From positions 1 through 44,121 of the forward strand of contig JAFSVB010000001.1 of the NCBI GenBank assembly GCA_017450325.1: DNA of 44,121 nt. The letters are read 5' to 3'. A program made the position numbers and the translations under genes. Below are positions 23,246-44,121 of this stretch, in pieces. Position 1 is the stretch's first letter. Each line of letters opens with the position of its first letter. The DNA is from Bacilli bacterium (GTDB lineage: Bacteria; Bacillota_I; Bacilli_A; RFN20; CAG-826). The notes under the pieces were generated by a model. It had not been told where the DNA came from and ran no database searches. It worked only from the letters and a program-made list of their open reading frames with translations.

Positions 23246-25069
23246 TTATTTTTTGGCAGCAATGACTTCGATGACCGTGTTGTTCGTGTTGAGCACGCGT
23301 AGATACTTGAAATCGCTCGCGACATCGCGGACGACGTCGATGCCATGGAATTCGAATTCGCCCGCTTCGCTTGGCGAGAAACTCGTGGGGTCAAAGGCGA
23401 TGCCGTCATCGCGGATGCGCAGGATCAGCTTTTCGCCATCAAAGCAGAGGTTGATGTCCACATACTGCGCTTTCGTGCCTTTGGAGTAGCCGTATCGGAT
23501 GGTGTTGGAGACGATTTCCTCCGTAGCGATGGCAAGCATCGCGGCGGCCGTCTCGTTTTTGCTGACCTCCTCTGCGTAACGCTGAATCTCCTCGACCGCT
23601 TTGGTCATCTCCTGCTCTTCGCAAGGCAAAGATAAGTCGAGGCATTGGGCGTCCTTTTTCGCTTCGGGGAGACAAAGAATGCCTTTGCCTGGCAGTTTAT
23701 GCAAAGCGCGTGCGATGAAGACAAAGGCGATGGTTAGGCCAAACGTCAACGCTTCCATCCCCACGTTGCCGATCGCATACCCTAAGGCGCCAAGGTTCAT
23801 CATCAGCACATAAATCAGCGCGGGACCGATCGCACCGAGGCGGATGACGTTCGCGGTGATCCCCGGAGAATTCACCATGATGGAGGGGTAATAGTTGGCC
23901 AAGAGACGGTTGCAGGCATAGAAGAGGAAAGAGATGACGTATACGCGAATCACGAGCATCGGATCGTTTCCATAGGAAGGGTGGAAGACGGCAATCGTCT
24001 CTTGCAAATCGACGCCGAAGATCATGAAGAAAAGCTGCGGGAAGATGAGCGAAACCGCCATCAAGATAAGGGTAATCGCCCCCGTGATCAAGACGACGCG
24101 GCGGAACACCGAACGAATCCCGAAATAGTCTTTTTCACCAAATAAGGAGGAGATCACCGAAGGCATCAGCTGCAATACGCCGACGATGAACAAGTCGATG
24201 ACGAAGGAGAAATTGCTAAGCATCGCGAATACCGGCATTTCCCCTTCGGTGAGGAAAGCGGTCGCGGCGATGTTGATGATAAGATAAAAGACACCCGAAA
24301 GCAGCGTGAAAATGCCCGTTACGCTACCCGCTTTCAGAATGCCGACGAAATGGGAGAACGCGCCTTTCCAAGGCGCTTTGACATCCGCGGTCCGCGCCTT
24401 GGACTTAAAGTAAAACGGCAACACGACCAGTCCGGAGAGCATGCCTAAGCCCATGCAACCCGCGGCGACATAGACGCCATAGCCCGCGACCACGTCCTTT
24501 GGTGCGGCCAAAGCGAATATCGCGAAGGCGGCTAGGTGGATGATGTTGGCGATGACGAAGAAGGCCGCGCCGAGGTTGGGGCTATTATCGCTAGGAAGCC
24601 AATAGGCCACCACGAGACCAATCGCGAGCAAAGGCGCTTGGCAGCAATAGACTTTCACGTATTGGGCAATCAATGGGGTGAGGCCCGTGAAATTGCCCGC
24701 GAGAAGACTTGCGATGCCGTCACCGAAAAGCAAGCCGATCGGGATGAAAATGAGGCTGATCAGGAACGATAGCAAGAGGCTTAGCTTAAATACCTGCCCC
24801 GCTTCTAAAGTCTTGCGTTTGCCGATGTAGTTCGCCCCGACGATACTCGCGCCGACGGCCAAAGCGAAGCCAGGCACTTCGACGAAAAACACGACGGGGA
24901 TGGCTAAAGAGGTCGCGCTCAGGGCGTCGGCGCCGAGGAAGTTGCCGACCATAATCGCGTCGCCAAGCGACCCAAATTGCATGGCTAGGACCATCAACAC
25001 GGTCGGAATCAAATACTGATAGAATTTGCGTCGGATGATCCGGTCATTACGGGCATAGGAGATTTCCAT
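23246..25069 (-). CDS. MATE-family transporter fused to an RsbW/SpoIIAB-like ATPase domain
   Basis: Residues about 1-450 are a MATE/MOP-type multidrug exporter with about twelve membrane helices (starts RKFYQYLIPTVLMVLAMQ; GDAIMVGNFLGADALSATS). Residues about 465-607 form a cytoplasmic GHKL-type HATPase of the anti-sigma kinase class: N-box EEIVSNTIRYGYSKG, G1 box RIRDDGIAFDP and a closing G-x-D segment. This suggests that a serine-kinase or sensor function is tied to transport. No STAS (RsbV) or PP2C partner is nearby; a free RsbW-like gene lies at 36284. I take ATG at 25069 as the start: TATGAT lies 7 bp upstream, within which the earlier ATGs at 25081/25078 fall. Total 607 residues. Confidence 0.88.
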   Translation of the reverse strand: MEISYARNDRIIRRKFYQYLIPTVLMVLAMQFGSLGDAIMVGNFLGADALSATSLAIPVVFFVEVPGFALAVGASIVGANYIGKRKTLEAGQVFKLSLLLSFLISLIFIPIGLLFGDGIASLLAGNFTGLTPLIAQYVKVYCCQAPLLAIGLVVAYWLPSDNSPNLGAAFFVIANIIHLAAFAIFALAAPKDVVAGYGVYVAAGCMGLGMLSGLVVLPFYFKSKARTADVKAPWKGAFSHFVGILKAGSVTGIFTLLSGVFYLIINIAATAFLTEGEMPVFAMLSNFSFVIDLFIVGVLQLMPSVISSLFGEKDYFGIRSVFRRVVLITGAITLILMAVSLIFPQLFFMIFGVDLQETIAVFHPSYGNDPMLVIRVYVISFLFYACNRLLANYYPSIMVNSPGITANVIRLGAIGPALIYVLMMNLGALGYAIGNVGMEALTFGLTIAFVFIARALHKLPGKGILCLPEAKKDAQCLDLSLPCEEQEMTKAVEEIQRYAEEVSKNETAAAMLAIATEEIVSNTIRYGYSKGTKAQYVDINLCFDGEKLILRIRDDGIAFDPTSFSPSEAGEFEFHGIDVVRDVASDFKYLRVLNTNNTVIEVIAAKK

Positions 25070-25076
25070 GTGCAAC

Positions 25077-25085
25077 ATCATACCA
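25077..25085 (-). promoter_or_regulatory. Extended -10 directly before the MATE-ATPase gene
   Basis: Minus strand TGG-TATGAT (25085-25077), then GTTGCAC, then ATG at 25069. Predicts a leaderless transcript; no SD. Confidence 0.48.
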
Positions 25086-25090
25086 TACGC

Positions 25091-25115
25091 ATAAAGAAAA
25101 GAGCCACGCAGTGGC
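25091..25115 (-). terminator. Intrinsic terminator ending the galactan operon
   Basis: Minus strand GCCAC-TGC-GTGGC followed by TCTTTTCTTTAT, 12 bp after the stop of the cytoplasmic GH53 gene. Confidence 0.68.
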
Positions 25116-25126
25116 GGCCCCTTCGT

Positions 25127-26248
25127 TTATTTGTGTTTGGCGCAGAAGGCGTATAGCCCTTTCGTCGCATGCCCCTCGTAGTCGAAGAGACATTGGTTCA
25201 TCCACTCGTTATGGGGTGGCTTTTCGTGTTGATTGATATAGTCTTGGCCCTTTAAGGACGTCCAGTTAAGCCCAGGCAGAGGAAGCCAAAGTGGCTCCCA
25301 ATAATGGATTTCCTCAACGCCATGTTCCTCCGAAAGACGGATGAGCTCGCGCAAGAACCCAGCCTGTCCCTCTTGCGTGAACGGGAAGGGCGGCTCGTAA
25401 TGAAGGCCATTGATTTCCGTCTCCTCCACCCAAGGGGACCAGGACTCTCCGTTCACGTCCACGGCGTCCATCGTAAACGCATAGGCGGTCTCGACGATCC
25501 AAATCGCTTTGCCAAAGCGCTTCTTCAAAGCGTCGACGTTGGCGAAGAGCTGGTCGAAAGTACCGTGCCAATAAGGATAATAGGACATGCCGATCACGTC
25601 GAAGTCCAGGCCGCGATAAGTCATCTCGTCGAAGAATTCGCGGTAGATTTGCGCGTCAAAACTGCGTTCTAGGTGCACGACGATGCGGATGGATTCGTCC
25701 ACTTCGCGCACCGCTTTGGACGCTTTGGAGAGCAAGAGGAAGAGGTTCGGGTATCCTCGGCGGACGCTCTCCCCTTCCACCGCTTCGAGTCTGCCAAGAG
25801 GCCAGAGCATGCCATTGGTGATCTCGTTGCCGATTTGCACCCCATGAAGCGGGACGCCTGCATCGATGGTCTTGCGGAGCGTTTCCTTGGTGTACTCATA
25901 GACGTTGGAGGCGACTTTCTCAAGCGATAAGCCACGCCACGCCTTGGGCATGGTTTGCTTGCTCGGGTCGGTCCAGAAATCGCTGTAATGGAAGTCGAGC
26001 ACGATGCGGTACCCTTTCGCGACGCCCTCCTTAGCAAGTTCGAGGAACGTAGGATAATCCACGGTCCCTCCCTGATAAGGCTGTCCGTCCTCATCATAGG
26101 GATTTAGCCATAGGCGCAGGCGCATGGTGGTCACACCGAGTTCGTCATGGATGTAGGAGATGGGGTCCACCGCGACGCCGCGAGCAAAGTAGCGCGCGCC
26201 GGCGGAGCGCACTTCCTTCATCGTGGATACGTCGATGCCTAATCTCAT
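25127..26248 (-). CDS. Cytoplasmic GH53 endo-beta-1,4-galactanase
   Basis: Cleaves beta-1,4-galactan chains with retention. The 373 residues are a bare GH53 barrel. The N-terminus LGIDVSTMKEV and RLRLWLNPYD match the family, the acid/base is Glu142 (QIGNEITNG) and the nucleophile Glu253 (WIVETAYAF); HYSDFWTDP and SYYPYWHG are also typical. There is no signal peptide or lipobox, so it should act in the cytoplasm on imported galacto-oligosaccharides, a job usually done by a GH42 beta-galactosidase. AAGGAG precedes the ATG, which overlaps the zinc-ribbon gene as ATGA. Last gene of the galactan operon. Confidence 0.9.
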   Translation of the reverse strand: MRLGIDVSTMKEVRSAGARYFARGVAVDPISYIHDELGVTTMRLRLWLNPYDEDGQPYQGGTVDYPTFLELAKEGVAKGYRIVLDFHYSDFWTDPSKQTMPKAWRGLSLEKVASNVYEYTKETLRKTIDAGVPLHGVQIGNEITNGMLWPLGRLEAVEGESVRRGYPNLFLLLSKASKAVREVDESIRIVVHLERSFDAQIYREFFDEMTYRGLDFDVIGMSYYPYWHGTFDQLFANVDALKKRFGKAIWIVETAYAFTMDAVDVNGESWSPWVEETEINGLHYEPPFPFTQEGQAGFLRELIRLSEEHGVEEIHYWEPLWLPLPGLNWTSLKGQDYINQHEKPPHNEWMNQCLFDYEGHATKGLYAFCAKHK

Positions 26249-26505
26249 AGTTCTCCTTTTTTATAAGGATGGAACTTCAGCGGCTCATTGTCCGCGCCCA
26301 TCGGCTCGAGGCGATCGGCGAGGTGGCCGTATTTCTTTTTGCAGAGCTCGTTCCAATGCTCTACTTCCGCTTCGCTTCCATGGAAGCAGCAACGGATGCA
26401 GTAATATTCCTTCTTCCCCTCGTCATAGAACATGTCGATGTCGAGATCGCGTTCGAAACAGACGGGGCAACGGAAGTTCAGTTTGCCTTTTTTAGCTTGA
26501 GCCAT
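26245..26505 (-). CDS. Small zinc-ribbon protein of unknown function
   Basis: An 86-residue basic protein with two Cys pairs, CPVC (13-16) and CIRC plus Cys40 (36-40), spaced like a zinc ribbon. FHGSEAEVEHWNELCKKKYGHL resembles the short ribbon proteins that reduce or restore Cys pairs in phage Lar-like families, but I would not assign it. GGGAG lies nine bases before the ATG. It overlaps the 606-residue protein gene by 28 bp and the GH53 gene by 4 bp, so it is firmly inside the galactan operon. Confidence 0.72.
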   Translation of the reverse strand: MAQAKKGKLNFRCPVCFERDLDIDMFYDEGKKEYYCIRCCFHGSEAEVEHWNELCKKKYGHLADRLEPMGADNEPLKFHPYKKGEL

Positions 26506-28298
26506 GTGGTGACGCTCCCTTCTTGGATGGTTTTCTTACCGCTTAGGCGGAACATAGGAGAGAAGGCGATACCTTCCTCGACGCGGGCCTTTGTCCCTTC
26601 GCCGCCGACTTCGATAACGGAGTCGATTTGGGGGACGACGGCATAGGCGACGCCAGAATCTTTTTCGATATGGCGGCACTTGTAGAGATACGGAATCTCT
26701 TCGCTATCCTCGCCGCGCACGCCAAGGGTGATGCCTGTCATGTCGAGCGAGTATTCCTCTTTGCCATAGGTGCCGACGAGGTAATCCTCGATTTCCACTT
26801 CGAGATGGTTCGGGTTTTCGAGGATGATGCGCTCGAAGATGATCTTGCCCTCGCCTTTGATGAACGTGAACTTCGACTGCATCTTTAGCGTGCCGTCGGA
26901 GAACACAACGTCGAAGGGGTCGGTGGTCACGACCGTGTTCTCACCATCCTTGGAATAGGTGGCGAGGGTGCGCTCCAAAGCGAGGTCGGCGATTTCGCCG
27001 CCGTACTTCACCTGACAGGACTTCAACGTGCCTTGTCCCGCATAGTGGGTGAAATAGCCCGCGCGATAGTTGGCTTGGATGATATAGGGATAGGAGGCGT
27101 TATAGGCGTTGCCCGTGCCGATGCCGACGGGGATGTCGAGCTTGGCCGCGAAGTTGCGGAGGTCGATCATCGCGCCGCCTTGGTTGAAGTCGAGGCAGCA
27201 GCGTAGATACGGATCGTAGTACCAGAAGTACTGCTTTTGCGAGCCATAGAGGATATCTTGCCACAAAGCGACTTCCGGGGTCTTGTAGTCCGGATGCCTT
27301 TCGCGGTAATGATGGGCGTATTCCTCCATCGTCATGTCGATGAGCTTCCCCTGCTTCTTGAGCTTCGAATAATACTCGAGAGCGTCCTCATAGGACTTCT
27401 TGAGCAATTCATATGGGGCCTCCCAACGGCCGAGCTTATTGAGCCAGCCCGGACCGACGAACATCATGTTGTAGGCGTTGCCGTCGTTGTAGCGGGCTTG
27501 TCTGCGGAACATGTCAACGAGATTGAAGAAATACGGGAGCTCGTTGTCTTGGTAAATCATGCCGCGCAGGACGTTCTGCGGGTGTGTGCCGAAATTGGAG
27601 CCGTTGCCATCGAAACACGCCATGGGGTCGCGGCTAAGATGCGGAATGGCGACGATGCCGGAGTCCTCGGCCTCGTTTTCCGCGGGCATCGCGGAATTGA
27701 TCTTCGAGGGGATCCAAGGAGCCCAGGGGCCGCCGTCCATGAAGGTATACCAAGAGTTGTTGGTCGTGTGGTAGGCCTTCACGCCCTCCTCGAAGCAGGT
27801 CGCGACGGCGCAGACGACCATCGGGTATTTCTGCTTGATGTAGTTGATGGTGAAAGCGTCGAGATAATAGGAACCCGTGGAGGCGGGATAGAATCCGAAC
27901 TTCTCCTTGAAGAGGGCGAAGCAGTCATCGACGATGGCTTTCTTGTCTTCTTCCGAGAACATCCAGATGCAGAAGTCCTTGGTTTTGTACTTCTCCTCGA
28001 ACTGTGGGCAAGGAAGGCCAAGCAGCGTCAAGGCGATCTCATCGCCATAAAGCTCATGGTGCTTTTTGGCAAGGGCCACCACCTCGTCGGAGAACAAGGA
28101 GGCGTAGGTCATCTCAATCGTCGTCTTAATCCCGCGGGAGTGCGCGCATTCCTGCTGGAAGAGGAAGATAGAGAGGGACTCATCGAGAAGCGATGCGTCC
28201 CCCACGTCTTCTTTCTTGCCGGATTGCATGATTTTCTGGGCGTATTCCGGAGACATTTCCGGACGGTGAATGAGGGTTAAGATGAATTCTTCTTTCAT
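26478..28298 (-). CDS. Uncharacterised 606-residue protein, probable carbohydrate-active enzyme
   Basis: I do not recognise a named family. The first about 400 residues look like a glycoside hydrolase/deacetylase-type alpha/beta barrel: alternating strands and helices, an acidic segment ALFKEKFGFYPASTGSYYLDA near 128-148 reminiscent of polysaccharide deacetylase/GH57-like folds, and aromatic-rich stretches (GGPWAPWIPSK; QYFWYYDPYLRC) fitting sugar binding. The last about 200 residues read as beta-sandwich (FTFIKGEGKIIFERIIL). No signal peptide, so cytoplasmic. It lies between the secreted and the cytoplasmic galactanases. The gap to the upstream gene (13 bp) has no SD but holds a near-palindrome AACTGGTACCAATT. 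Confidence 0.8.
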   Translation of the reverse strand: MKEEFILTLIHRPEMSPEYAQKIMQSGKKEDVGDASLLDESLSIFLFQQECAHSRGIKTTIEMTYASLFSDEVVALAKKHHELYGDEIALTLLGLPCPQFEEKYKTKDFCIWMFSEEDKKAIVDDCFALFKEKFGFYPASTGSYYLDAFTINYIKQKYPMVVCAVATCFEEGVKAYHTTNNSWYTFMDGGPWAPWIPSKINSAMPAENEAEDSGIVAIPHLSRDPMACFDGNGSNFGTHPQNVLRGMIYQDNELPYFFNLVDMFRRQARYNDGNAYNMMFVGPGWLNKLGRWEAPYELLKKSYEDALEYYSKLKKQGKLIDMTMEEYAHHYRERHPDYKTPEVALWQDILYGSQKQYFWYYDPYLRCCLDFNQGGAMIDLRNFAAKLDIPVGIGTGNAYNASYPYIIQANYRAGYFTHYAGQGTLKSCQVKYGGEIADLALERTLATYSKDGENTVVTTDPFDVVFSDGTLKMQSKFTFIKGEGKIIFERIILENPNHLEVEIEDYLVGTYGKEEYSLDMTGITLGVRGEDSEEIPYLYKCRHIEKDSGVAYAVVPQIDSVIEVGGEGTKARVEEGIAFSPMFRLSGKKTIQEGSVTTWLKLKKAN

Positions 28299-28311: not shown

Positions 28312-30993
28312 TTATGCGGAGATTTTCGCTAATTCGATGTCCGTCATGCGGCCCCAGCTATTGGCTTTGCCCGCGAGGCGGAATCCAATTTCGATCTTCT
28401 CGGTTCCCTTGACATTGATGGTCGCGCTCGCGGCGACGCCTTCGGCTTTCCAACCTTGTAAGAAGGAGGACATGTCGAGGACGGTCTCGCTCTCGTCGCT
28501 GGCATTCTTGTAGTAAACGGAGAAGGACTCATAGGATGCGGCGACGTCGGACACGATGACGAAGCTCAGGGTATATTGACCCGCCTCGAGGTTCTTGACG
28601 TTCTGGTGGAACGCGAAGCTATAGGCGGCTTCGGACCACCACTTCACGAAGCGGTCGTTGGACGTACCCGTGATGGAATCGCCCGAAGTGGTATCGGCGA
28701 CTTGGAAGCCCGCGCCGTTATTCTCGGTTGTGACCCACGGGTCGGAAGGTTCCGCCCAAAGGGTCTGTGCGGCGAAGTTGCCATCGGCGAGGACGCCATC
28801 GGAAACATATTCTTCTTCTGGAACGTATTCTTTATGGGCGGCGAAGGACCATAGGTCACAATGTCCCCAACCGGTTCCGCCAACTTCGGCGGTGATGCCG
28901 ATGGTGACGTTAGCGCCACCGCTTGCCTCGGGGATCACGATGTTTCCGATCGCCGCGCGGTTCATGTAGCGCTTTAACGGGGCGCCCCAGCCCTTGACGA
29001 CGGTGTTCAGGATGTCGACAACGACTTTCTCCTGCTCGCCGATTTGATACCAGAGGTCGAACTTCGAGTAATCGCTCGGGAGGTCGCCAGCCATGATGTA
29101 GGTGGACAGGTCATAGCTTCCAGCGCGGACGCCGGTGAGGGTCTGGCTGAGGGTGAAATAGAAGTCGGAGTTATTGAACCAATGGAAGTACTTTTCGCCA
29201 TCGAGGTTGCCCTCGGACTTGGCTTCGATGCGGGCGGCGTTATCGATGGAGCATTCTAGTTGCCAATTATCGCCGCTTAAGGCCACCTGCTCGCCGTCTT
29301 TCTGCTCTTCGAAGGAGTAATCCTTAACGTAGTTCGTCTCGGCTTTGACATGGGCGACGATATCGTATTTGCCGTCGACCTTGCCATGGACGTCATAGTC
29401 TCCATCGCCACCGGCGAGGATGGCGTCGATCTCGGATTGCGTCCAACTGACCTTGCTACGGCGAAGGGCATCGAAGTCCGTGACGATGAGCGCGTCGCCC
29501 GGAAGGGTGATTTTGCCCGAGACGAGGTTGACGTTGACGTCGACTTCCGGCGTGCGGAGGCCGATGACGTGCTCCTCGGCGGTCTTGTCGCCCTCGATGA
29601 TGTGCTTATAGGTGGAAGCGCTCGGGAGGACTTTTCCGGTATAGGAGAACCAAGCCTGGTTGCTCCATGCGGGGCGGCAGGAGGCATCGCTATAGCCAGC
29701 GATTTGTTCCGCGGTGCCATCTCGGCCATGGTCGTTATAGAACTGACCGGCCTTGGACGCCCAAGTCGAACCGGCGACGGGGAGCCAAGCAGGTTCCCAG
29801 TAGAATACGCCCTGGCCATAGTTGTCCTTGACGCTGGAGAGGGTGGAGACGACGTCGGCGAGCTCGGTCGTTTGGCCTTGGATGGACGTGATGTATCCGC
29901 CCGGAGTCTCGAAGGTAGAGGAATGATAGGTGTTCGAGCAGTTCTCGTTCGGCTCGTCGGTGAAGCCATAGGAGGTTTCCACGACCCACGTCGGACGGTT
30001 ATAGGTATCGCGGATGTGGTTCATGACGTTGAGGAGATTCTCCTGCGTGCCATGCCAGAACGGGTAATAGGAAAGGCCGACGATATCATAAGGCACGGGC
30101 GTGTTCTCGCCATCCAAGCCTTTTTCCATCGCGTCGAGGAAGTTGTAAACGCCCTTGGGGGACTTGATGTTGGTAAGGTGGACGAGGGTCTTGATGTTGG
30201 GGAAGACTTCCTTCGCTGCGGCGACGCCAGAACGGACCATCGCGACGATCGTCTCGGCGCCACCGAGGAACTTTTCGCCGGCGATGCCATAGTTGGTCTC
30301 GTTGCCAATTTGGCAAGAATCTACGTAAATCCCCGCTTTTTTGAAAGCGTTGAGGGAATCACGGGTGAAGTCAGCGATGAGGTCCGGCTTGTCCATGGAA
30401 AGTTCATCCGCCCATGCTTTTGGGCAATGGAACTTCTGCGGGTCTGCCCAAGAATCGCTGTAATGGAAGTCAAGGAGTACCTTCATGCCAGCCGCTTTGG
30501 CGCGCTTGGCCAACGCGATGTCGGTCTCAAGATCGTTTCCGCCGCCGCCATAGGATTCGCCCGTCACAGCGGACTTGGGGTCGTTCCAAAGACGGAGACG
30601 GCAATAGTTGACCCCATCGGCCGCGAGGAGTTTGAAGACATCCTGTTCTTCGCCCTTCTCGTTATAGAAGACGCCGCCATTGCGCTCGACTTCCGCGATG
30701 ATGGATAAGTCGGCGCCAAAGGCAAAGTCATCGACGAGCGCCTTGGCGGGTTTGTTGACCTTGATGGACTCGTAGTCGTACTTCTCGTCATTGGTGCGCG
30801 TCCCGATGCCGGAGTCGCTGTCGAGGCTGACGTAGGAATACGACGAATCGTCGACAGGCGTAGAAGAGGATGCAGTTGGTTCTGTCGAGGTCGTCTTCGG
30901 CGCCGAGGAAGGCTCGGGGGAGGACGTCGCCCCACCGCAAGCGGTGAGCAGCAAGCCAGAGAGGGCGAGCGTCAGGATCGTTTTGCTCTTCAT
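28312..30993 (-). CDS. ganB: Surface lipoprotein arabinogalactan endo-beta-1,4-galactanase (GH53) with Ig-like and carbohydrate-binding modules
   Basis: Degrades beta-1,4-galactan side chains of pectin at the cell surface. The 893 residues begin with a lipoprotein signal (LLLTAC, Cys19) and a Ser/Thr/Pro linker (20-55). The GH53 barrel spans about 82-470 with acid/base Glu232 (QIGNETN) and nucleophile Glu339 (WVVETSYGF). A bacterial Ig-like domain (about 480-550) follows, then two jelly-roll modules (about 553-720 and 735-893) that resemble each other (DYSFEE/DGNFAA openings, W-rich), likely galactan-binding CBM61-type. ATG at 30993 has AAGGAGG eleven bases upstream; the longer frame to 31095 lies within araC. 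Confidence 0.92.
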   Translation of the reverse strand: MKSKTILTLALSGLLLTACGGATSSPEPSSAPKTTSTEPTASSSTPVDDSSYSYVSLDSDSGIGTRTNDEKYDYESIKVNKPAKALVDDFAFGADLSIIAEVERNGGVFYNEKGEEQDVFKLLAADGVNYCRLRLWNDPKSAVTGESYGGGGNDLETDIALAKRAKAAGMKVLLDFHYSDSWADPQKFHCPKAWADELSMDKPDLIADFTRDSLNAFKKAGIYVDSCQIGNETNYGIAGEKFLGGAETIVAMVRSGVAAAKEVFPNIKTLVHLTNIKSPKGVYNFLDAMEKGLDGENTPVPYDIVGLSYYPFWHGTQENLLNVMNHIRDTYNRPTWVVETSYGFTDEPNENCSNTYHSSTFETPGGYITSIQGQTTELADVVSTLSSVKDNYGQGVFYWEPAWLPVAGSTWASKAGQFYNDHGRDGTAEQIAGYSDASCRPAWSNQAWFSYTGKVLPSASTYKHIIEGDKTAEEHVIGLRTPEVDVNVNLVSGKITLPGDALIVTDFDALRRSKVSWTQSEIDAILAGGDGDYDVHGKVDGKYDIVAHVKAETNYVKDYSFEEQKDGEQVALSGDNWQLECSIDNAARIEAKSEGNLDGEKYFHWFNNSDFYFTLSQTLTGVRAGSYDLSTYIMAGDLPSDYSKFDLWYQIGEQEKVVVDILNTVVKGWGAPLKRYMNRAAIGNIVIPEASGGANVTIGITAEVGGTGWGHCDLWSFAAHKEYVPEEEYVSDGVLADGNFAAQTLWAEPSDPWVTTENNGAGFQVADTTSGDSITGTSNDRFVKWWSEAAYSFAFHQNVKNLEAGQYTLSFVIVSDVAASYESFSVYYKNASDESETVLDMSSFLQGWKAEGVAASATINVKGTEKIEIGFRLAGKANSWGRMTDIELAKISA

Positions 30994-30994
30994 A

Positions 30995-31807
30995 TTAGGA
31001 ATTGCCTCCTTTTGAACGGTAATGAAGCGGCGAGCAGCCGAAGTGAAGCTTGAACGCCTTAGAGAAATGCAAGGGGGATAGATAGCCGACGGCATGGGCG
31101 ATTTCCGCCACGGACGAAGAGGAGCTAAGCAGCATCGTGGAGGCCGCTTCCATCCTGGTATTCGTCAAGAATGCCTTCGGGGAGGGCTCGCCTTCCCGCT
31201 GGAAGAGGTTGGCGAGATAGTTGGGGGAGACGCCGACGCTTCGGGCAACGTCGGTCATGGTGATGGGGAACTGGAAGTTGTTGCGGATGTAGGACTTTGC
31301 CGCAAGGATATGACCGCGTTCGGACTCTTTGACGCCGCCGATTTTCGCGGAGTCGCTCATCGCGGCTAGCAAACCATAGACGTTGGAGAGGCTTTTTAAG
31401 TCGAAGGCGCCTTTTTGGTAATAGGATTCATAGATGCCTTCGAAGAAGCGTTTCCAGGCGAGGGCCTTGTCATGCAGGACGGGACGGCCTTGCCCAAAGC
31501 CGGCATAGGCGAGCAACGCGCTTCCTTTCGCCCCACCAATCCCGATCCAGTAATAGGACCAAGGCTGTTCCGGATAGGCGCGATAGGAGGCGGTCTCCCC
31601 CGCGGGGATGAGGAAGCAATCACCTGCCTTAAGCTGATAGTTCTTCCCTTCGTATTGGAAGGAGCCCATGCCCGCGTAGACATAGTGAATCAGGGGATAA
31701 GGCTTTGGGGTGAAGGAAATGGATTTATCCGCGATGCAGACCTCACGGCCCGCCTCGAGGATGCTCACGTCCAGGAAGGATGTGACGTCGACGACAGGAG
31801 AAGGCAT
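30995..31807 (-). CDS. AraC-family transcriptional regulator with cupin sensor domain
   Basis: Likely activates the galactan genes on sensing an imported galactoside. The 270 residues have an N-terminal cupin-like arm (HYVYAGMGSFQYEGKNYQL and GDCFLIPAGE, about 41-70) and a C-terminal pair of HTH motifs (ITMTDVARSVGVSPNYLANLF, described by its ends ITMTD and NYLAN, about 183-203; and VAEIAHAVGYLSPLHFSKAF, about 233-252). This is the classical AraC/XylS layout. SD AAAGGA, six bases before the ATG. Placed inside the operon between permease and galactanase genes. B. subtilis uses the LacI-type GanR for the same job. Confidence 0.9.
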   Translation of the reverse strand: MPSPVVDVTSFLDVSILEAGREVCIADKSISFTPKPYPLIHYVYAGMGSFQYEGKNYQLKAGDCFLIPAGETASYRAYPEQPWSYYWIGIGGAKGSALLAYAGFGQGRPVLHDKALAWKRFFEGIYESYYQKGAFDLKSLSNVYGLLAAMSDSAKIGGVKESERGHILAAKSYIRNNFQFPITMTDVARSVGVSPNYLANLFQREGEPSPKAFLTNTRMEAASTMLLSSSSSVAEIAHAVGYLSPLHFSKAFKLHFGCSPLHYRSKGGNS

Positions 31808-31810
31808 AGA

Positions 31811-33037
31811 CTATCCTTTCACCGCGCCGCCCGTGACGCCGCCAACGTAGTATTTCTGAACGAGCATGAATAAGACCGATAACGGGACCGCCACGATGAC
31901 GGAGCCCGCGGCGAAGACGCCGAACCAATCCACTTGGTTGCCCGCCGTGATGAGGTTGATGAGGCCCATCGCCACTGTGTAATGCGCCGGCAACGCGTTA
32001 TTGCCGAGGATGATCTTCGCGAAGACGAAGTCCACCCAAGGTGACATGAAGGCGGTGATGATGGTGTAGACGATAATCGGCTTGGAAAGCGGGACAAGGA
32101 TCTGGAAGAAGATGCGCGAGGAAGAAGCGCCATCGAGTTTCGCGGCTTCGTCGACGGCGGTCGGGATGGTATCGAAGAAGCCCTTCGCGACCAGATAGCC
32201 GAGGCCAGCGCCTGCCGAATAGGCGATGATGAGGCGGACAAGGCCCGACTGGATCTTGAAGACGTACTCAAAGAGGTAATAGGAGACCAGCATCGTGAGC
32301 ATGCCCGGGAAGAGAGCGATGATCATGGAGATGTTCATGAGCCCCTTTCTCTTCTTGAAGTTGAAACGCGAGAACGCAAACGCGGTCGCGAGCACGAACA
32401 GGGTCGAGAGAATCGTCGAGCAGACGGAGACGATCAGCGTGTTCATGAACCACGTCGGGAAGGCGTTGACGTCGCCCGTCTTTGTAAAGAGGTCGATGTA
32501 GTTCTGGAAGGTCCATACCTCGGGGAAGAACTTCGAGATATTCGCGCCATGCAAGTTGCCCGTAAAGCTGACGAGAATCAGCCAGAAAATCGGGATGAGC
32601 CAGGCGAACACGAGGACGGCAATGAAGAGGTTATGCAAGACAGTCAAGAGCAAATCCGTGGCTTTTTTGCGACGCATTTTGCCCAAATTATGCATTTGTT
32701 GTTGATGGAGTTTCGCGGATTCCGGCGTCGCGAGCAGAATGCTGCAACGCTCATTGCCTCGCTTGGCGGTGGAAAGATGGATATCGTAGGTGCCATCCTG
32801 CTCCACGACCATGATGCCTTCTCTCCCTTCGGAGCATTGGGCATCGTCTTTGTCGAGGCAGTTATAACGCAGGTCGCGAACGCCTCCGTCCAGGATGAGG
32901 GCGTCGCCTTTCTGCAAGTGAACGTCGAAGGCCACCACTTCATCTTCTTGGCTTGCGCCGCCAAGGAGCTTATGGGATATTTTCTTGCCCGCCCGCTCAA
33001 TGTTAAGGCGCCAAAGCTTTACACGGTCGTTTGCCAT
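31811..33037 (-). CDS. ganQ: Galacto-oligosaccharide ABC permease, MalG/GanQ-like, with N-terminal extension
   Basis: Inner-membrane half of a CUT1 sugar importer. The MalG-type core (about 125-408) has six membrane segments, the EAA loop DEAAKLDGASSSRIFF for ATPase docking, and the end motif QKYYVGGVTGGAVKG. The first about 110 residues are unusual: soluble, rich in charged residues and beta-strand-like (VAFDVHLQKGDALILDGG, YDIHLSTAKRG), where a typical MalG has about 15. This may be a sensor or ATPase-contact domain. TAATG overlap with the upstream permease and GGAGG eight bases before the ATG. Confidence 0.88.
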   Translation of the reverse strand: MANDRVKLWRLNIERAGKKISHKLLGGASQEDEVVAFDVHLQKGDALILDGGVRDLRYNCLDKDDAQCSEGREGIMVVEQDGTYDIHLSTAKRGNERCSILLATPESAKLHQQQMHNLGKMRRKKATDLLLTVLHNLFIAVLVFAWLIPIFWLILVSFTGNLHGANISKFFPEVWTFQNYIDLFTKTGDVNAFPTWFMNTLIVSVCSTILSTLFVLATAFAFSRFNFKKRKGLMNISMIIALFPGMLTMLVSYYLFEYVFKIQSGLVRLIIAYSAGAGLGYLVAKGFFDTIPTAVDEAAKLDGASSSRIFFQILVPLSKPIIVYTIITAFMSPWVDFVFAKIILGNNALPAHYTVAMGLINLITAGNQVDWFGVFAAGSVIVAVPLSVLFMLVQKYYVGGVTGGAVKG

Positions 33038-34578
33038 TATTGGAGCCTCCTTTCGCGGTCACCCTTGGTGCTTTGCGTGAACGTAATCAGGGTGAAGATC
33101 GTGGAGATCGTGAACATGATGATACCGACGATGGACGCCATGTAATATTCATGCTTGGCTCCGCCGGCGATCATGTTGTAGAGCCAGGTGATGAGCAAGT
33201 CGGATTCTCTGGCGCTGACGTCGATGTAGGCTTGGTTGGAGCTGACGCTGTCGGCGGTCAAGAGATAGATGACGTTGAAATTGTTGATGTTCGAAACGAA
33301 GCTGGAAATCAAATACGGGGTGCAGACCTGGAGGATGTAAGGCATGGTGATGGACCAAAACATCTTGGTCTTGCCCGCACCATCGATGCGCGCGGACTCA
33401 TAGAGGTCGGCCGGGATGTTGAGCAAAATGCCCGAAATCATCAACATTAAATACGGGAAGCCAACCCAGCAGTTCACCAAGATAATGGTGAATTTCGTGA
33501 TGGTCGGATCGGAGAGGAAGCCGATAGGTTTGTCGATGAGGTGGAAGGTGTAAATCAACAGGTTGTTGACGATTCCTTCGTCCGCGAGGAAGTAACGGAT
33601 GAGCATCAAGGAGACGAACTGCGGGACCGCGATGGTCAAGACGAAGCCCGTACGCCAAACTTTGGTGAAACGCGTGCGCTTCGCATTGAGAAGCAGCGCG
33701 AGCAATAAGCCGCCAAAGAAGCAGGTAATGGTCGCGAAGAAGGCCCAGATGACCGTCCAAAGCAGCTGCGACCCGAAGACAGAGAGGAAGGAAGACCCAC
33801 CGCCGATGGAGAAGAGGTTGCCCCAGTTACTGAAACCGACCCATGAGAAATTGTGAATCTGCACGGTCTCGCCGCCGGATTTGCCTCCGTAGTTGGTGAA
33901 GGCGATGAGAATCATCATCAAAGTCGGAACCAAGGTGAAGGTCAGAATACCGATAACCGGCAAGGCGAGGGTGGTGATGTAGAAATGCTCGTCGAGGAGG
34001 TCGTGAACGTCCTGACGGGCGCTTTTAATGGGCTTGCCTTCCTTAATATCGCATTCGCTGCGGTAAACGCCCTTCACCGACGAAAGGTGGATGAAGAGCC
34101 AGAAGACGAGGATCAGGATGGTCAGGATGGAGAACAAGACGATGAGGAACGCATTGTCTGGTCCGCCAGGCGGGCAGATTTCCTCAAAGTCTTCGTTGAT
34201 GGTGCATACCTGAAGGCTGTTCAAGGACAGCTTTGCGAAGTTCGGGACGCCCCAGAAGATGAGCGCCACGATGGCGAGCGCTTCCAAGGCGAGGTAGAAG
34301 ACCCCGCGCAGCCACTGGTTCACGTAGCGGCGGGACTTGATGGTGATGGATTTTGGATGGCCATCCTCGTCGGGGACGACGTCATGAGTCAGCACTTCTT
34401 GTTCATGGCCATGGAAGAAATATCCACAGCCGCTGAGGAGAAATGAGAGTTTCGTGAAGACATCGCCATGGATGAGCGCTTGGCCTAACGGTCGAAAATA
34501 CCCGCAAATCCCCCGCCAAATCTTGACGAAGGGATTTACCTTTTCGGCCTTTCTATTCGTAACGGCGCGCGTAGACAT
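33037..34578 (-). CDS. ganP: Galacto-oligosaccharide ABC permease, MalF/GanP-like
   Basis: Partner permease of the CUT1 importer, 513 residues. After a cytoplasmic N-terminus (1-about 85, with HGHEQEVLTHDVV) come two helices separated by a Cys-containing loop (CTINEDFEEICPPGG), then the core with the EAA loop ESARIDGAGKTKMFW. Length equals E. coli MalF rather than the shorter Bacillus GanP (about 420), but the extra sequence is N-terminal and in the first loop. Followed by ganQ with TAATG overlap. No ATPase gene lies in the locus, so a shared MsmX-type ATPase encoded elsewhere must power it. Confidence 0.9.
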   Translation of the reverse strand: MSTRAVTNRKAEKVNPFVKIWRGICGYFRPLGQALIHGDVFTKLSFLLSGCGYFFHGHEQEVLTHDVVPDEDGHPKSITIKSRRYVNQWLRGVFYLALEALAIVALIFWGVPNFAKLSLNSLQVCTINEDFEEICPPGGPDNAFLIVLFSILTILILVFWLFIHLSSVKGVYRSECDIKEGKPIKSARQDVHDLLDEHFYITTLALPVIGILTFTLVPTLMMILIAFTNYGGKSGGETVQIHNFSWVGFSNWGNLFSIGGGSSFLSVFGSQLLWTVIWAFFATITCFFGGLLLALLLNAKRTRFTKVWRTGFVLTIAVPQFVSLMLIRYFLADEGIVNNLLIYTFHLIDKPIGFLSDPTITKFTIILVNCWVGFPYLMLMISGILLNIPADLYESARIDGAGKTKMFWSITMPYILQVCTPYLISSFVSNINNFNVIYLLTADSVSSNQAYIDVSARESDLLITWLYNMIAGGAKHEYYMASIVGIIMFTISTIFTLITFTQSTKGDRERRLQ

Positions 34579-34595: not shown

Positions 34596-36017
34596 TTATT
34601 TACCCGTTAATGTAGCGACGCAAGCGTTCAATGCGGCTTGAATCGCATCCATATCGAGGACGATGTCCGCGGTGCCTTGGCCGGACTTGATGAAGGAGGC
34701 ATCCGCACCGGCGTTACCGACGCAAAGCTGGTTGGAGAGACCGTTCGAGGGGTTCCAATAAGCTTCGTTGACTTTCTCGACGAAACCGCCCTTCTGCCAC
34801 TGCTCGTTCAGCGCCTTGACGCAGGCGTTGGTGCTGTAGTCGCATTGCTTAACGGAATCGGTGTTGGTCGGCGCCTCAGAAAGAGCGTCGAAGCGGAGAA
34901 TCTGGTTCTCATAGTTGGTGAGGAATTCGGCAAAGCGGCAAGCGGCGACAACGGTCTTGGCGCGAGCGCGGTTGATAACGGCGACCTTGAATCCCTTGAC
35001 GGACTGCATGCCATAGTCCTTATTGATGGAATCGACATGATAGGTCGGAAGGGTCGTGGCAGCGGCGCCGGTTCCCCAAGCGGCCTTCAGGCGGTTGTAG
35101 TTCCAGGTACCGTTAATGGTAGCGATGATTTGGTTTGGGGCGGAGTCGTCGACCTGGTTCATGAGAAGTTCCTGCTTTTGGGAGGTCCAATACTTCTCAT
35201 ATTGGCCATGGGCGAGCTTGACAAGGCTCGCGGCGACATCGACGCCTTTGACTTTCGTGCCAGAAGGATCGGTCGCTTCGCCGTTCCAGTCACATTCGAC
35301 GGTTGCTTTGCCCGCTTCGCCATAAACGCTGAAGCCCGCCGGACGGAACCAGCCATCAAGATACCAGCCGGAATTGCTCGGGAAGCCAAAGCGATAGTTC
35401 TTGCCCTTCTCTTCGGAGACTTTCTTAATGGCCGCGAGAAGTTTTTCGAAGCTCGTGGTGTCCTCAGCCTTGATGAGGTTGGAATTGTAATAGAGGATGT
35501 AGCCGTTGGAGGCAGAGACCGGGAACCCATAGGTCTTTTCCTCGCTTGTGAGGACTTCGATGGATTCCTTGCTGTTGCGGGTTTTGATCGAGTCGGCAAG
35601 GCCGGGGATTTTCTTTTCGAGTTGCTCGATGTTCTGGATGTAGTTCGACGAAATCATCGAGGGGATCTGGTCGTCGGCAGCGATTGCGAGATCCGCGGCG
35701 GTATCCGGGTTCTGAGCCCAGTCGCCCGAGACGGAGGATTCGCTGACGGGCTTGACTTGGATGGTGTAGTTGGACTTCGGGTTGGCTTTTTTGAAGTCTT
35801 GGGCCACAGTGCGGATAAAGTCGACGGAATCTTGAGTTTCGCCACCCCAAACATTCAGAGTGACTTCTTCGTCGGCGGTATCGGCATAGGGATTGGACCA
35901 GTCGATGGACCTGCGCGTATCGCTAGAGGAACCACCGATGGCCGAGGATGTTGCAGTTCCGCCGCACGAGGCTAACGCTACGACGGCGATTGAAGTGAGG
36001 AACAGTTTTGGATTCAT
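34596..36017 (-). CDS. ganS: Galacto-oligosaccharide-binding lipoprotein (solute-binding family 1, MalE/GanS-like)
   Basis: Captures oligosaccharides for the permeases downstream. The 473 residues start with a lipoprotein signal ending LASC (Cys18), then a short Ser-rich linker and a two-lobe binding protein: EEVTLNVWGGE near 50-60, YGFPVSASNGYILYYNSNL near 160-180 and NGTWNYNRLKAAWG near 320. High Trp/Tyr content suits sugar stacking. ATG at 36017 has GGGAG five bases upstream; an in-frame ATG at 36056 lies at the promoter and is rejected. First gene of the galactan operon, preceded by a cre-like site and a TATAAT. Confidence 0.92.
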   Translation of the reverse strand: MNPKLFLTSIAVVALASCGGTATSSAIGGSSSDTRRSIDWSNPYADTADEEVTLNVWGGETQDSVDFIRTVAQDFKKANPKSNYTIQVKPVSESSVSGDWAQNPDTAADLAIAADDQIPSMISSNYIQNIEQLEKKIPGLADSIKTRNSKESIEVLTSEEKTYGFPVSASNGYILYYNSNLIKAEDTTSFEKLLAAIKKVSEEKGKNYRFGFPSNSGWYLDGWFRPAGFSVYGEAGKATVECDWNGEATDPSGTKVKGVDVAASLVKLAHGQYEKYWTSQKQELLMNQVDDSAPNQIIATINGTWNYNRLKAAWGTGAAATTLPTYHVDSINKDYGMQSVKGFKVAVINRARAKTVVAACRFAEFLTNYENQILRFDALSEAPTNTDSVKQCDYSTNACVKALNEQWQKGGFVEKVNEAYWNPSNGLSNQLCVGNAGADASFIKSGQGTADIVLDMDAIQAALNACVATLTGK

Positions 36018-36054
36018 ATATTCTCCCTGCAGATAGGCCTGCGATTGTAGTGTC

Positions 36055-36060
36055 ATTATA
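36055..36060 (-). promoter_or_regulatory. -10 box of the galactan operon promoter
   Basis: Minus strand TATAAT (36060-36055), 37 bp before the ganS ATG. The 17-bp upstream hexamer (TATTTG) is weak, as expected for an activator-dependent (AraC) promoter. Confidence 0.6.
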
Positions 36061-42138: not shown

Positions 42139-44121
42139 ATGAAAGCAAAGCATATCCACCTTGCCCTCGCATCGCTCGTGCTCGCCTCTTGCGGCGGTTC
42201 AAGCTCCCCCTCAAGCAGCCCTGCTAGCATCGCTTCCTCCGAAGCCCCGACCGTTAGCTCGGACGCTGCCCCCTCTAGCGAAGCGGCGCCAAATAGCTCC
42301 TCTACCATCCCCGCCCACGACAAAGCGAAGACCATTGAGAATATTCTCGCCGCGACGACCTACCGCCTCGATAACTTCACGCACATCGAGACCGAAAACT
42401 CCGCCGAGCCGAATTCGAGCGCGTCCAGTTTTAAGGTTACTTCCATCATCGATAACCACAATTATTTTGAGGCCCATAACTATGACTGTGTTTATTGGGA
42501 AGAGACAAGCGCCGCTAGCCGCATGAAACTCAGTGAGTACCTTGCCCAAGCGCACATGACGTTGGAGCAATTCAAGGCAATGCTTCCTAGAATGGAAGCA
42601 GCGGGAATCAAGTTCACGATCGACGAAGAAAACGATCTTCTCCAAATGAGCATGGGCTCCCTCGCGCTCGATACCAGCAAGATATATGTATTCTATGACA
42701 CTGGCGCAAAGCAACATGAACAATACGTCTATACGCTCAGTGAAGAAGAAGGAGAAACCTGCACTGCTGCCGCTTACCTTCTCGATGGCGAGGCGGGCCT
42801 CCTCGACGTGCCCACGGCCGTCAACGAGCTCACTCTCTTCGCCCTGGACCAAGGCACGTTCAATCCCGCGGAATGCAGTTACACCATTGAGGATCTTAGC
42901 AAAGCCGAACTATCCCCCGTCCTTCAGGAGGGTATCGCGTCTATAGCGAAGAGCCTCACTTTGACCATCAAGGATGACTACCCCGAGAAACTGCTGCTCG
43001 ACGTCGACCTAGAGGCGCTTGGCGAGATGATGGGCGCTTCGGAAAACGCGAATATCATCGCTTCGGAATATGGCGTTGCCTTTGACTATAAGGGACCCTT
43101 TTTGGATTTAAGCGGCAAGCGTGCTGGCGTCGATTGCTCTTATCAGCATCACGGACATGCCCAATACGAATATTTGGAAGACGGCTACCGCGCCTATTGC
43201 GCTAACTGCAATAAGTATCTTGGTGAAAAGCAGAGCTACGCGTTTGACAGCACCTACCACGTCTGCGCCAAATCCGGTCGCATCGATGGTTTAAACCCCC
43301 ATGCGGACAAAACCTATGCGGGGCTGATATACGTCGATGAGCAAGAAGGCGTTGAGTACTACGCCTTCAGCTATGCAAATAACGAAAAATACGGCACCAA
43401 ATGGGACGCCTACACCTTCGAAGCGAAGAGAATCAACGAATCCGCTGACGAAAACATGGAGATTTATTCCCACTACGAAGAAGGAGTGTACTACAACTAT
43501 TGGCCCGAACAAAAAGCGCTCGTCGTCGAAAAAGGAATCGGCAGCGACCCGATTGCGAACAGCTGTCAACTTGTTTTCAAAAAGAGCTACTCTTTCTATA
43601 AGGATGTTGAAATCAATTATGAGTCTAGCGAGTGGACGCTCTCGAACGGCACGGCCCTCGCCGATGCCCTAGAAAGCATGACTCCGGCGGAATCCATTGA
43701 GGCGCTATCGCTCTCCGAGTACCACGAGCATGTTCATGACGTCACCTACAAAGGCGAAGATTGCGACGTTCTTCACGTTGAAGTCTGCGACGATTGCGGC
43801 GAGGAAGTCCATGCCTATTTCCGTTCCACCAATCACAGCTTCGAATACGGCGAGGTTCTCTCCTATGCGGACTTATCCGCCTTCTTGGAGGGTATGGAAG
43901 CATACAATCGCTGGGAAGAAGAGGATACGACGTTGATCGTCAAGGCAACTTGCACGAAATGCGAAGACACCATCATATTCGTCATCACTCCCGAATATTC
44001 CCAAAATGGGAATTACTGGATTGGCAGCATCGACGAATGGGGCGATTTCTCTTTCACGTTAACCAACGACCCGCTCCCTGGCCTTAAAGACGCCGAAGGA
44101 CAGCAGATCTTCCCAATTGTC
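42139..44121 (+). CDS. Large partial lipoprotein with repeated Cys-pair (zinc-ribbon-like) modules; C-terminus off the right edge
   Basis: I translated the frame from ATG 42139 (AAAGGA seven bases upstream) to the window end: 661 codons, no stop. A lipoprotein signal ends LASC (Cys18), followed by a Ser/Pro/Ala linker (19-60). Residues about 65-325 form a domain I do not recognise. Three segments then carry Cys pairs: YCANC (354-357, preceded by CSYQHHGH), CDDC (550-553, preceded by EYHEHVHD) and CTKC (605-608). The His-rich lead plus CxxC recalls surface-protein repeats and zinc ribbons. Paired Cys in an exported protein suggest metal binding or disulfides. It follows a divergent 163-bp gap and has no partner in view. 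Confidence 0.82.
   Translation, partial: MKAKHIHLALASLVLASCGGSSSPSSSPASIASSEAPTVSSDAAPSSEAAPNSSSTIPAHDKAKTIENILAATTYRLDNFTHIETENSAEPNSSASSFKVTSIIDNHNYFEAHNYDCVYWEETSAASRMKLSEYLAQAHMTLEQFKAMLPRMEAAGIKFTIDEENDLLQMSMGSLALDTSKIYVFYDTGAKQHEQYVYTLSEEEGETCTAAAYLLDGEAGLLDVPTAVNELTLFALDQGTFNPAECSYTIEDLSKAELSPVLQEGIASIAKSLTLTIKDDYPEKLLLDVDLEALGEMMGASENANIIASEYGVAFDYKGPFLDLSGKRAGVDCSYQHHGHAQYEYLEDGYRAYCANCNKYLGEKQSYAFDSTYHVCAKSGRIDGLNPHADKTYAGLIYVDEQEGVEYYAFSYANNEKYGTKWDAYTFEAKRINESADENMEIYSHYEEGVYYNYWPEQKALVVEKGIGSDPIANSCQLVFKKSYSFYKDVEINYESSEWTLSNGTALADALESMTPAESIEALSLSEYHEHVHDVTYKGEDCDVLHVEVCDDCGEEVHAYFRSTNHSFEYGEVLSYADLSAFLEGMEAYNRWEEEDTTLIVKATCTKCEDTIIFVITPEYSQNGNYWIGSIDEWGDFSFTLTNDPLPGLKDAEGQQIFPIV

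Follow-up and report, generated by a model that had tools for sequence, protein, structure and literature searches.

In Bacillus subtilis, GanA-type galactan use is encoded by ganSPQAB, in which a GH53 endo-galactanase is combined with a GH42 enzyme. The glycosidases known to have the barrel fold discussed below (GH38, GH57 and GH119) cleave alpha bonds. We have analysed a window of 44,121 nucleotides (the whole of positions 1 to 44,121 of contig JAFSVB010000001.1, assembly GCA_017450325.1, from a Bacilli bacterium), at which an operon resembles ganSPQAB by carrying an ABC importer and GH53 for beta-1,4-galactan, yet two genes that we call X and Z, together with an intracellular GH53, occupy the place of the GH42 gene. 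The operon reads from upstream as solute-binding lipoprotein, two permeases, AraC regulator, GH53 lipoprotein, X, Z and short GH53, composed of the following features:

34596–36056, minus strand: solute-binding lipoprotein of an ABC importer (PF13416, E = 1.9e-22)
33037–34578, minus strand: ABC sugar importer permease, MalF-like (PF00528)
31811–33037, minus strand: ABC sugar importer permease, MalG-like (PF00528)
30995–31807, minus strand: AraC-family regulator (PF12833, PF02311)
28312–30992, minus strand: GH53 endo-galactanase, lipoprotein, MKSKTILTLALSGLLLTACGG... (PF07745, E = 5.8e-94)
26478–28298, minus strand: X, 606 aa; predicted (beta/alpha) barrel at about 1–340 and mutarotase-like beta-sandwich at about 340–606
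26245–26505, minus strand: Z, zinc-ribbon protein, 86 aa; two Cys pairs, CPxCF...C-I/L-RC
25127–26248, minus strand: GH53 endo-beta-1,4-galactanase, 373 aa, no signal peptide (cytoplasmic) (PF07745, E = 8.8e-89)
25103–25115, minus strand: terminator-like hairpin after the last gene (consensus match only; such hairpins were about as numerous as expected in shuffled sequence)

The gaps between genes range from −28 to +17 bp with the start of the GH53 lipoprotein placed at 30992, where an ATG is preceded by AGGAGG as ribosome-binding site; the listed ORF extends to 31095. The short GH53 begins on the stop codon of Z, with 4 bp shared (ATGA). An earlier sequence-only reading of this DNA had described a 606-residue protein lying between two GH53 genes in one operon, and this is borne out by the position of the ORF and by the PF07745 matches of both neighbours. 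The scanned proteins of the window include no GH2, GH42 or GH35. In the whole source genome GH42 and GH35 were likewise not found, and four GH2 matches were detected, all of them on other contigs.

Elsewhere in the window, two ORFs are worth recording. At 23246–25081 on the minus strand, a MATE-type transporter is fused to a C-terminal HATPase_c_2 (RsbW-like) domain, which is an unusual fusion, and at 42139–44121 on the plus strand, a lipoprotein ORF of at least 660 aa with no Pfam match runs off the end of the window.

Sequence comparison and predicted fold of X

X has no visible signal peptide, and its comparison by sequence with Pfam, NCBIfam and PDB matched no family. GT_PLOD (E = 0.003) and DUF596 surfaced in these searches as chance-level matches and were discarded. 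The GH57 Pfam model matched neither X nor any of 20 relatives at E ≤ 0.1, and X and its relatives were equally missed by the Pfam models of GH38, CE4 and DUF3863/DUF3864 (PF12979/PF12980) and by the sequence models of GH2, GH42 and GH35. X is thus unclassified by Pfam, NCBIfam and PDB comparison, and a very recent CAZy family for which Pfam holds no model may include it.

An AlphaFold model built from 60 sequences (pLDDT 84.3, pTM 0.87), which supersedes an earlier one from 20 sequences (pLDDT 71), predicts a (beta/alpha) barrel of the GH57/GH38/CE4 type followed by a galactose-mutarotase-like sandwich. Model and fold searches both support the barrel-like N-terminal part and the beta-sandwich-like C-terminal part that had been proposed from the sequence alone. 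The top Foldseek match, over both domains, was 1k1x, the GH57 4-alpha-glucanotransferase of Thermococcus litoralis (E = 7e-14), followed by GH38 mannosidases, mutarotases and deacetylases. By VIA-align, the top match was 3LM3 (Z 30.7, rmsd 3.2, 381 residues); after it, residues 1–340 were closest to CE4 (Z 19–20) and GH57 (Z 17–18) structures, and residues 340–606 to mutarotase-like domains (Z about 15). The likeness to 1K1X lies in the arrangement of barrel and beta-sandwich, yet identity to X is about 8–10%, the domains are packed otherwise (global rmsd about 18–20), the GH57 Pfam match is lacking and the catalytic Asp motif is not evident in X. Similarly, GH38 alpha-mannosidases share the barrel superfamily and the beta-sandwich domains (Foldseek E down to 4e-8), although they are much larger than X, which escapes the GH38 Pfam model.

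The closest structure, 3LM3, is BDI_3119 of Parabacteroides distasonis, a DUF3863 protein, and no paper mentioning DUF3863 was found in the literature searched. Besides the fold, X and DUF3863/DUF3864 proteins have in common a "YPxS...PAQ...DP" motif and a weak direct profile match (E = 8e-4). Nevertheless, the two differ in several respects: identity to X is 14–16%, a true DUF3863 member scores 704 bits on the Pfam model against no match for X, the sandwich of X is mutarotase-like and longer than the short DUF3864, the residue at the place of Asp147 of X is not Asp in DUF3863, and X sits in a Bacillota operon with GH53 and Z. Two remote relatives were recovered. One, found by profile search, is a 794-aa frame (locus L109; hhalign E = 1.4e-9 over 314 columns) that adjoins an ORF labelled by eye as GH38-like; sampling of whole phyla gave no relative outside the X family besides this frame. 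The other, closer to X than DUF3863 is, is a 566-aa hypothetical protein on a Parabacteroides plasmid (locus L127; E = 1e-28 over 371 columns), which lies directly beside a DUF3863 protein in a Bacteroidota locus with SusC/SusD and GH2 (L127:11587–14707). Because of the 3LM3 fold match and these two profile matches, X can be regarded as a distant branch of a DUF3863-containing superfamily. The earlier statement that X cannot be placed in a known family therefore holds for Pfam and NCBIfam and gives way to a remote kinship with DUF3863/DUF3864 proteins. In short, X belongs to the GH57/GH38/CE4/DUF3863 superfamily as a remote branch that is unclassified and is paired with a zinc-ribbon protein.

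Asp147 (strand 4) and Asp224 (strand 6) are invariant in X relatives and are both kept in two remote homologues; in an alignment of six sequences with remote relatives, Asp224 was present in all six and Asp147 in five. When the catalytic residues of GH57 were sought in X by matching motifs by eye, Asp147 fell near strand 4 and an invariant Asn277 at the place of the acid/base Asp. The loops 168–186 and 231–246 show the highest conservation within the barrel (96–99%), yet they are the least confident parts of the model, which would fit ordering by a ligand or by Z. Asp147 and Asp224 are probably close to the active site of X.

The partner gene Z

In many loci, X and the short GH53 are separated by about 233–240 bp. 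This interval holds a conserved ORF, Z, whose start lies within the 3′ end of X with an overlap of 28 bp. Z was absent from the earlier account of the locus. Z is a real coding sequence: its reading frame is preserved in all relatives, most substitutions are at the third position of a codon, and 106 of 116 copies have a Shine-Dalgarno-like sequence in front. In database searches, it resembles generic zinc ribbons only.

Z was found at the fixed overlap in 115/115 X loci, some of which are second fetches of the same place. Moreover, among 145 related genomes it occurs in exactly the 25 that have X (Fisher p about 1e-28); three further matches in this set were weak and broken. Z is the obligate partner of X, and the two proteins may form a physical complex. 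The neighbourhoods of the remote relatives of X showed no zinc-ribbon motif. X was not found on viral contigs. Z itself begins one contig of a viral collection (L126:1–3534), where it is followed by GH53 and an integrase, so that a galactan locus here abuts a mobile element.

Distribution and linkage to galactan genes

Scanning one GTDB genome per species gave at least 578 stretches with a relative of X. All relatives sampled from these are Bacillota, and the 80 loci that we examined belong, judged by record title, almost wholly to Bacillota of gut and rumen. The 48 non-redundant relatives have a mutual identity of at least 57%. GH53 was counted at these loci with phmmer and tblastn, and by tblastn it lies near X in 78 of the 80; one of the two exceptions is a contig ending just after X and Z. 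In most loci a short GH53 with no signal peptide follows directly downstream of X. Among 145 relatives of the source genome, GH53 is present in 25/25 with X vs 9/120 without it (Fisher p about 7e-21, a value that overstates independence as the genomes are related). The link of X to the galactan pathway thus far exceeds what chance would give, and the genome context supports that X and Z belong to intracellular use of beta-1,4-galactan. Passages on galactan in papers on the galactan loci of Roseburia and E. rectale and on growth of L. phytofermentans on galactan (PMC5320581, PMC4230839) name no X-like protein.

GH42 was detected in eight of the 80 X loci, one of them labelled L. phytofermentans, and GH2, a broad family with many activities, in 24 of the 25 genomes with X; other exo-enzymes may thus act alongside X. 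Owing to this breadth, presence of GH2 was rejected as a discriminator of the role of X. A test of 12 X genomes gave no GH35. A genome of 0.8 Mb and 96% completeness (G056) has X, Z and four GH53 and gave no GH2, GH42 or GH35 match. The sequence-only reading had argued that X could finish galactan breakdown, or else remove arabinose or acetyl groups, since the locus has neither GH2 nor GH42. The absence at the locus stands, while the conclusion drawn from it is weakened by the four GH2 elsewhere in the genome and by GH42 in eight X loci, and strengthened by the small genome. Overall, that reading has partial support.

Other sugar genes also accompany X. A locus of a Clostridia MAG from rabbit gut (L074:3–11797) carries galT, galK, galE, an FGGY kinase gene, araA and galM directly upstream of X, as well as a likely araD (galT and araD being named by eye); it is the only one of the 80 loci with araA near X. 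Starch enzymes were counted at the same 80 loci, with GH13 amylase in 26, pullulanase in 14 and GH77 in 10. In L040, L055, L082, L086 and others, such starch genes stand beside X and GH53; perhaps there is a joint starch–galactan system with one importer at such loci.

Proposed role and alternative explanations

We think it rather probable that X and Z together make up a carbohydrate-active enzyme of two components, which works in the cytoplasm as part of the beta-1,4-galactan (arabinogalactan I) pathway and finishes the imported oligosaccharides. The secreted lipoprotein GH53 would cut galactan outside the cell, the ABC importer would take up the resulting oligosaccharides and the short GH53 would trim them inside the cell. 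X, carrying Z as a small subunit of structural or regulatory function, would then take off a terminal sugar, which would make galactose available to the Leloir pathway. Within the GH57/GH38/CE4 (beta/alpha)7 superfamily, X would found a new family of glycoside hydrolases, remote kin of DUF3863. Its active site would be situated where the barrel strands end C-terminally, close to Asp147 and Asp224, and be covered by the loops 168–186 and 231–246. The occurrence of galT, galK, galE, galM and araA at some X loci speaks for this role, as does the finding of GalK in every X genome tested for it (32); against it, starch enzymes (GH13, GH77) are found at up to a third of the loci, and no family of known reaction matches X by sequence.

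Fold and context suggest a glycosidase chemistry. The bond cut may quite possibly be the beta-galactosidic end of galacto-oligosaccharides, somewhat less possibly a bond of another kind, and more doubtfully an alpha-L-arabinosyl cap or branch. A beta-galactosidase reading fits the missing pathway step and the genome with four GH53, yet the alpha-bond chemistry of the known glycosidases of this fold argues against it. In its fullest form, that X–Z is the first (beta/alpha)7 glycoside hydrolase needing a zinc-ribbon subunit, cleaves beta-1,4-galacto-oligosaccharides in the cell and gives Bacillota of gut and rumen a new way to complete the use of pectic galactan, the proposal is tentative.

The same alpha-bond chemistry, seen in GH38 and GH57, would suit an alpha-L-arabinosidase, either an arabinopyranosidase or an arabinofuranosidase, by which imported arabinogalacto-oligosaccharides would lose their arabinose caps or branches before GH53 and a separate beta-galactosidase complete the breakdown. 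The rabbit-gut locus, with its arabinose and galactose genes directly before X, accords with such an enzyme, and the beta-galactosidase could come from other genes, GH42 or GH2. However, araA near X is confined to that one locus, and the genome with no GH2, GH42 or GH35 would have no galactobiose-splitting enzyme among the families tested; we therefore hold this explanation to be unlikely. It is improbable that X–Z acts instead as a phosphorylase or transglycosidase on galacto-oligosaccharides, saving ATP via galactose 1-phosphate. A cytoplasmic place beside an importer is indeed usual for known glycoside phosphorylases, and the top Foldseek match is a transferase, but we know of no phosphorylase with the fold of X. 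GalK, moreover, was present in each of the 32 X genomes examined, though other galactose sources could explain its presence; with GalK constant in this set, its absence could not serve as a sign of a phosphorylase.

Two further explanations are drawn from the fold and appear far less probable than the arabinosidase. Removal of acetyl groups from imported oligosaccharides by a CE4-like esterase or deacetylase, which the sequence-only reading had also entertained, would agree with the structural likeness of the barrel to CE4 enzymes, which are among its top matches (Z about 19–20), but inspection of the aligned X sequences did not reveal the CE4 metal motif (Asp and HxxxH), and the CE4 Pfam model matched none; acetyl removal is thus unlikely. 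As to a GH57-like alpha-glucan enzyme, whose GH53 neighbours would reflect a shared plant-carbohydrate locus, the fold similarity and the starch genes beside X lend it some appeal, yet GH53 stands at 78 of the 80 loci, and the unmatched GH57 model and the Asn277 found by eye in place of the acid/base Asp make it hardly credible.

Significance for gut and rumen Bacillota

Galactan is a common pectin side chain of diet and forage. Hundreds of genomes of Bacillota from gut and rumen carry X and Z beside GH53, and the Pfam and NCBIfam models searched recognise neither protein, so annotation pipelines would show a galactan operon minus its last enzyme. The Parabacteroides plasmid locus, at which an X-like protein and a DUF3863 protein are neighbours, may offer clues to what DUF3863 proteins do. 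If the proposed role is true, a glycoside hydrolase family would be added, the DUF3863-type proteins of Bacteroidota would gain a lead to their function, and X would exemplify an enzyme that has a small zinc-ribbon protein as its obligate partner.
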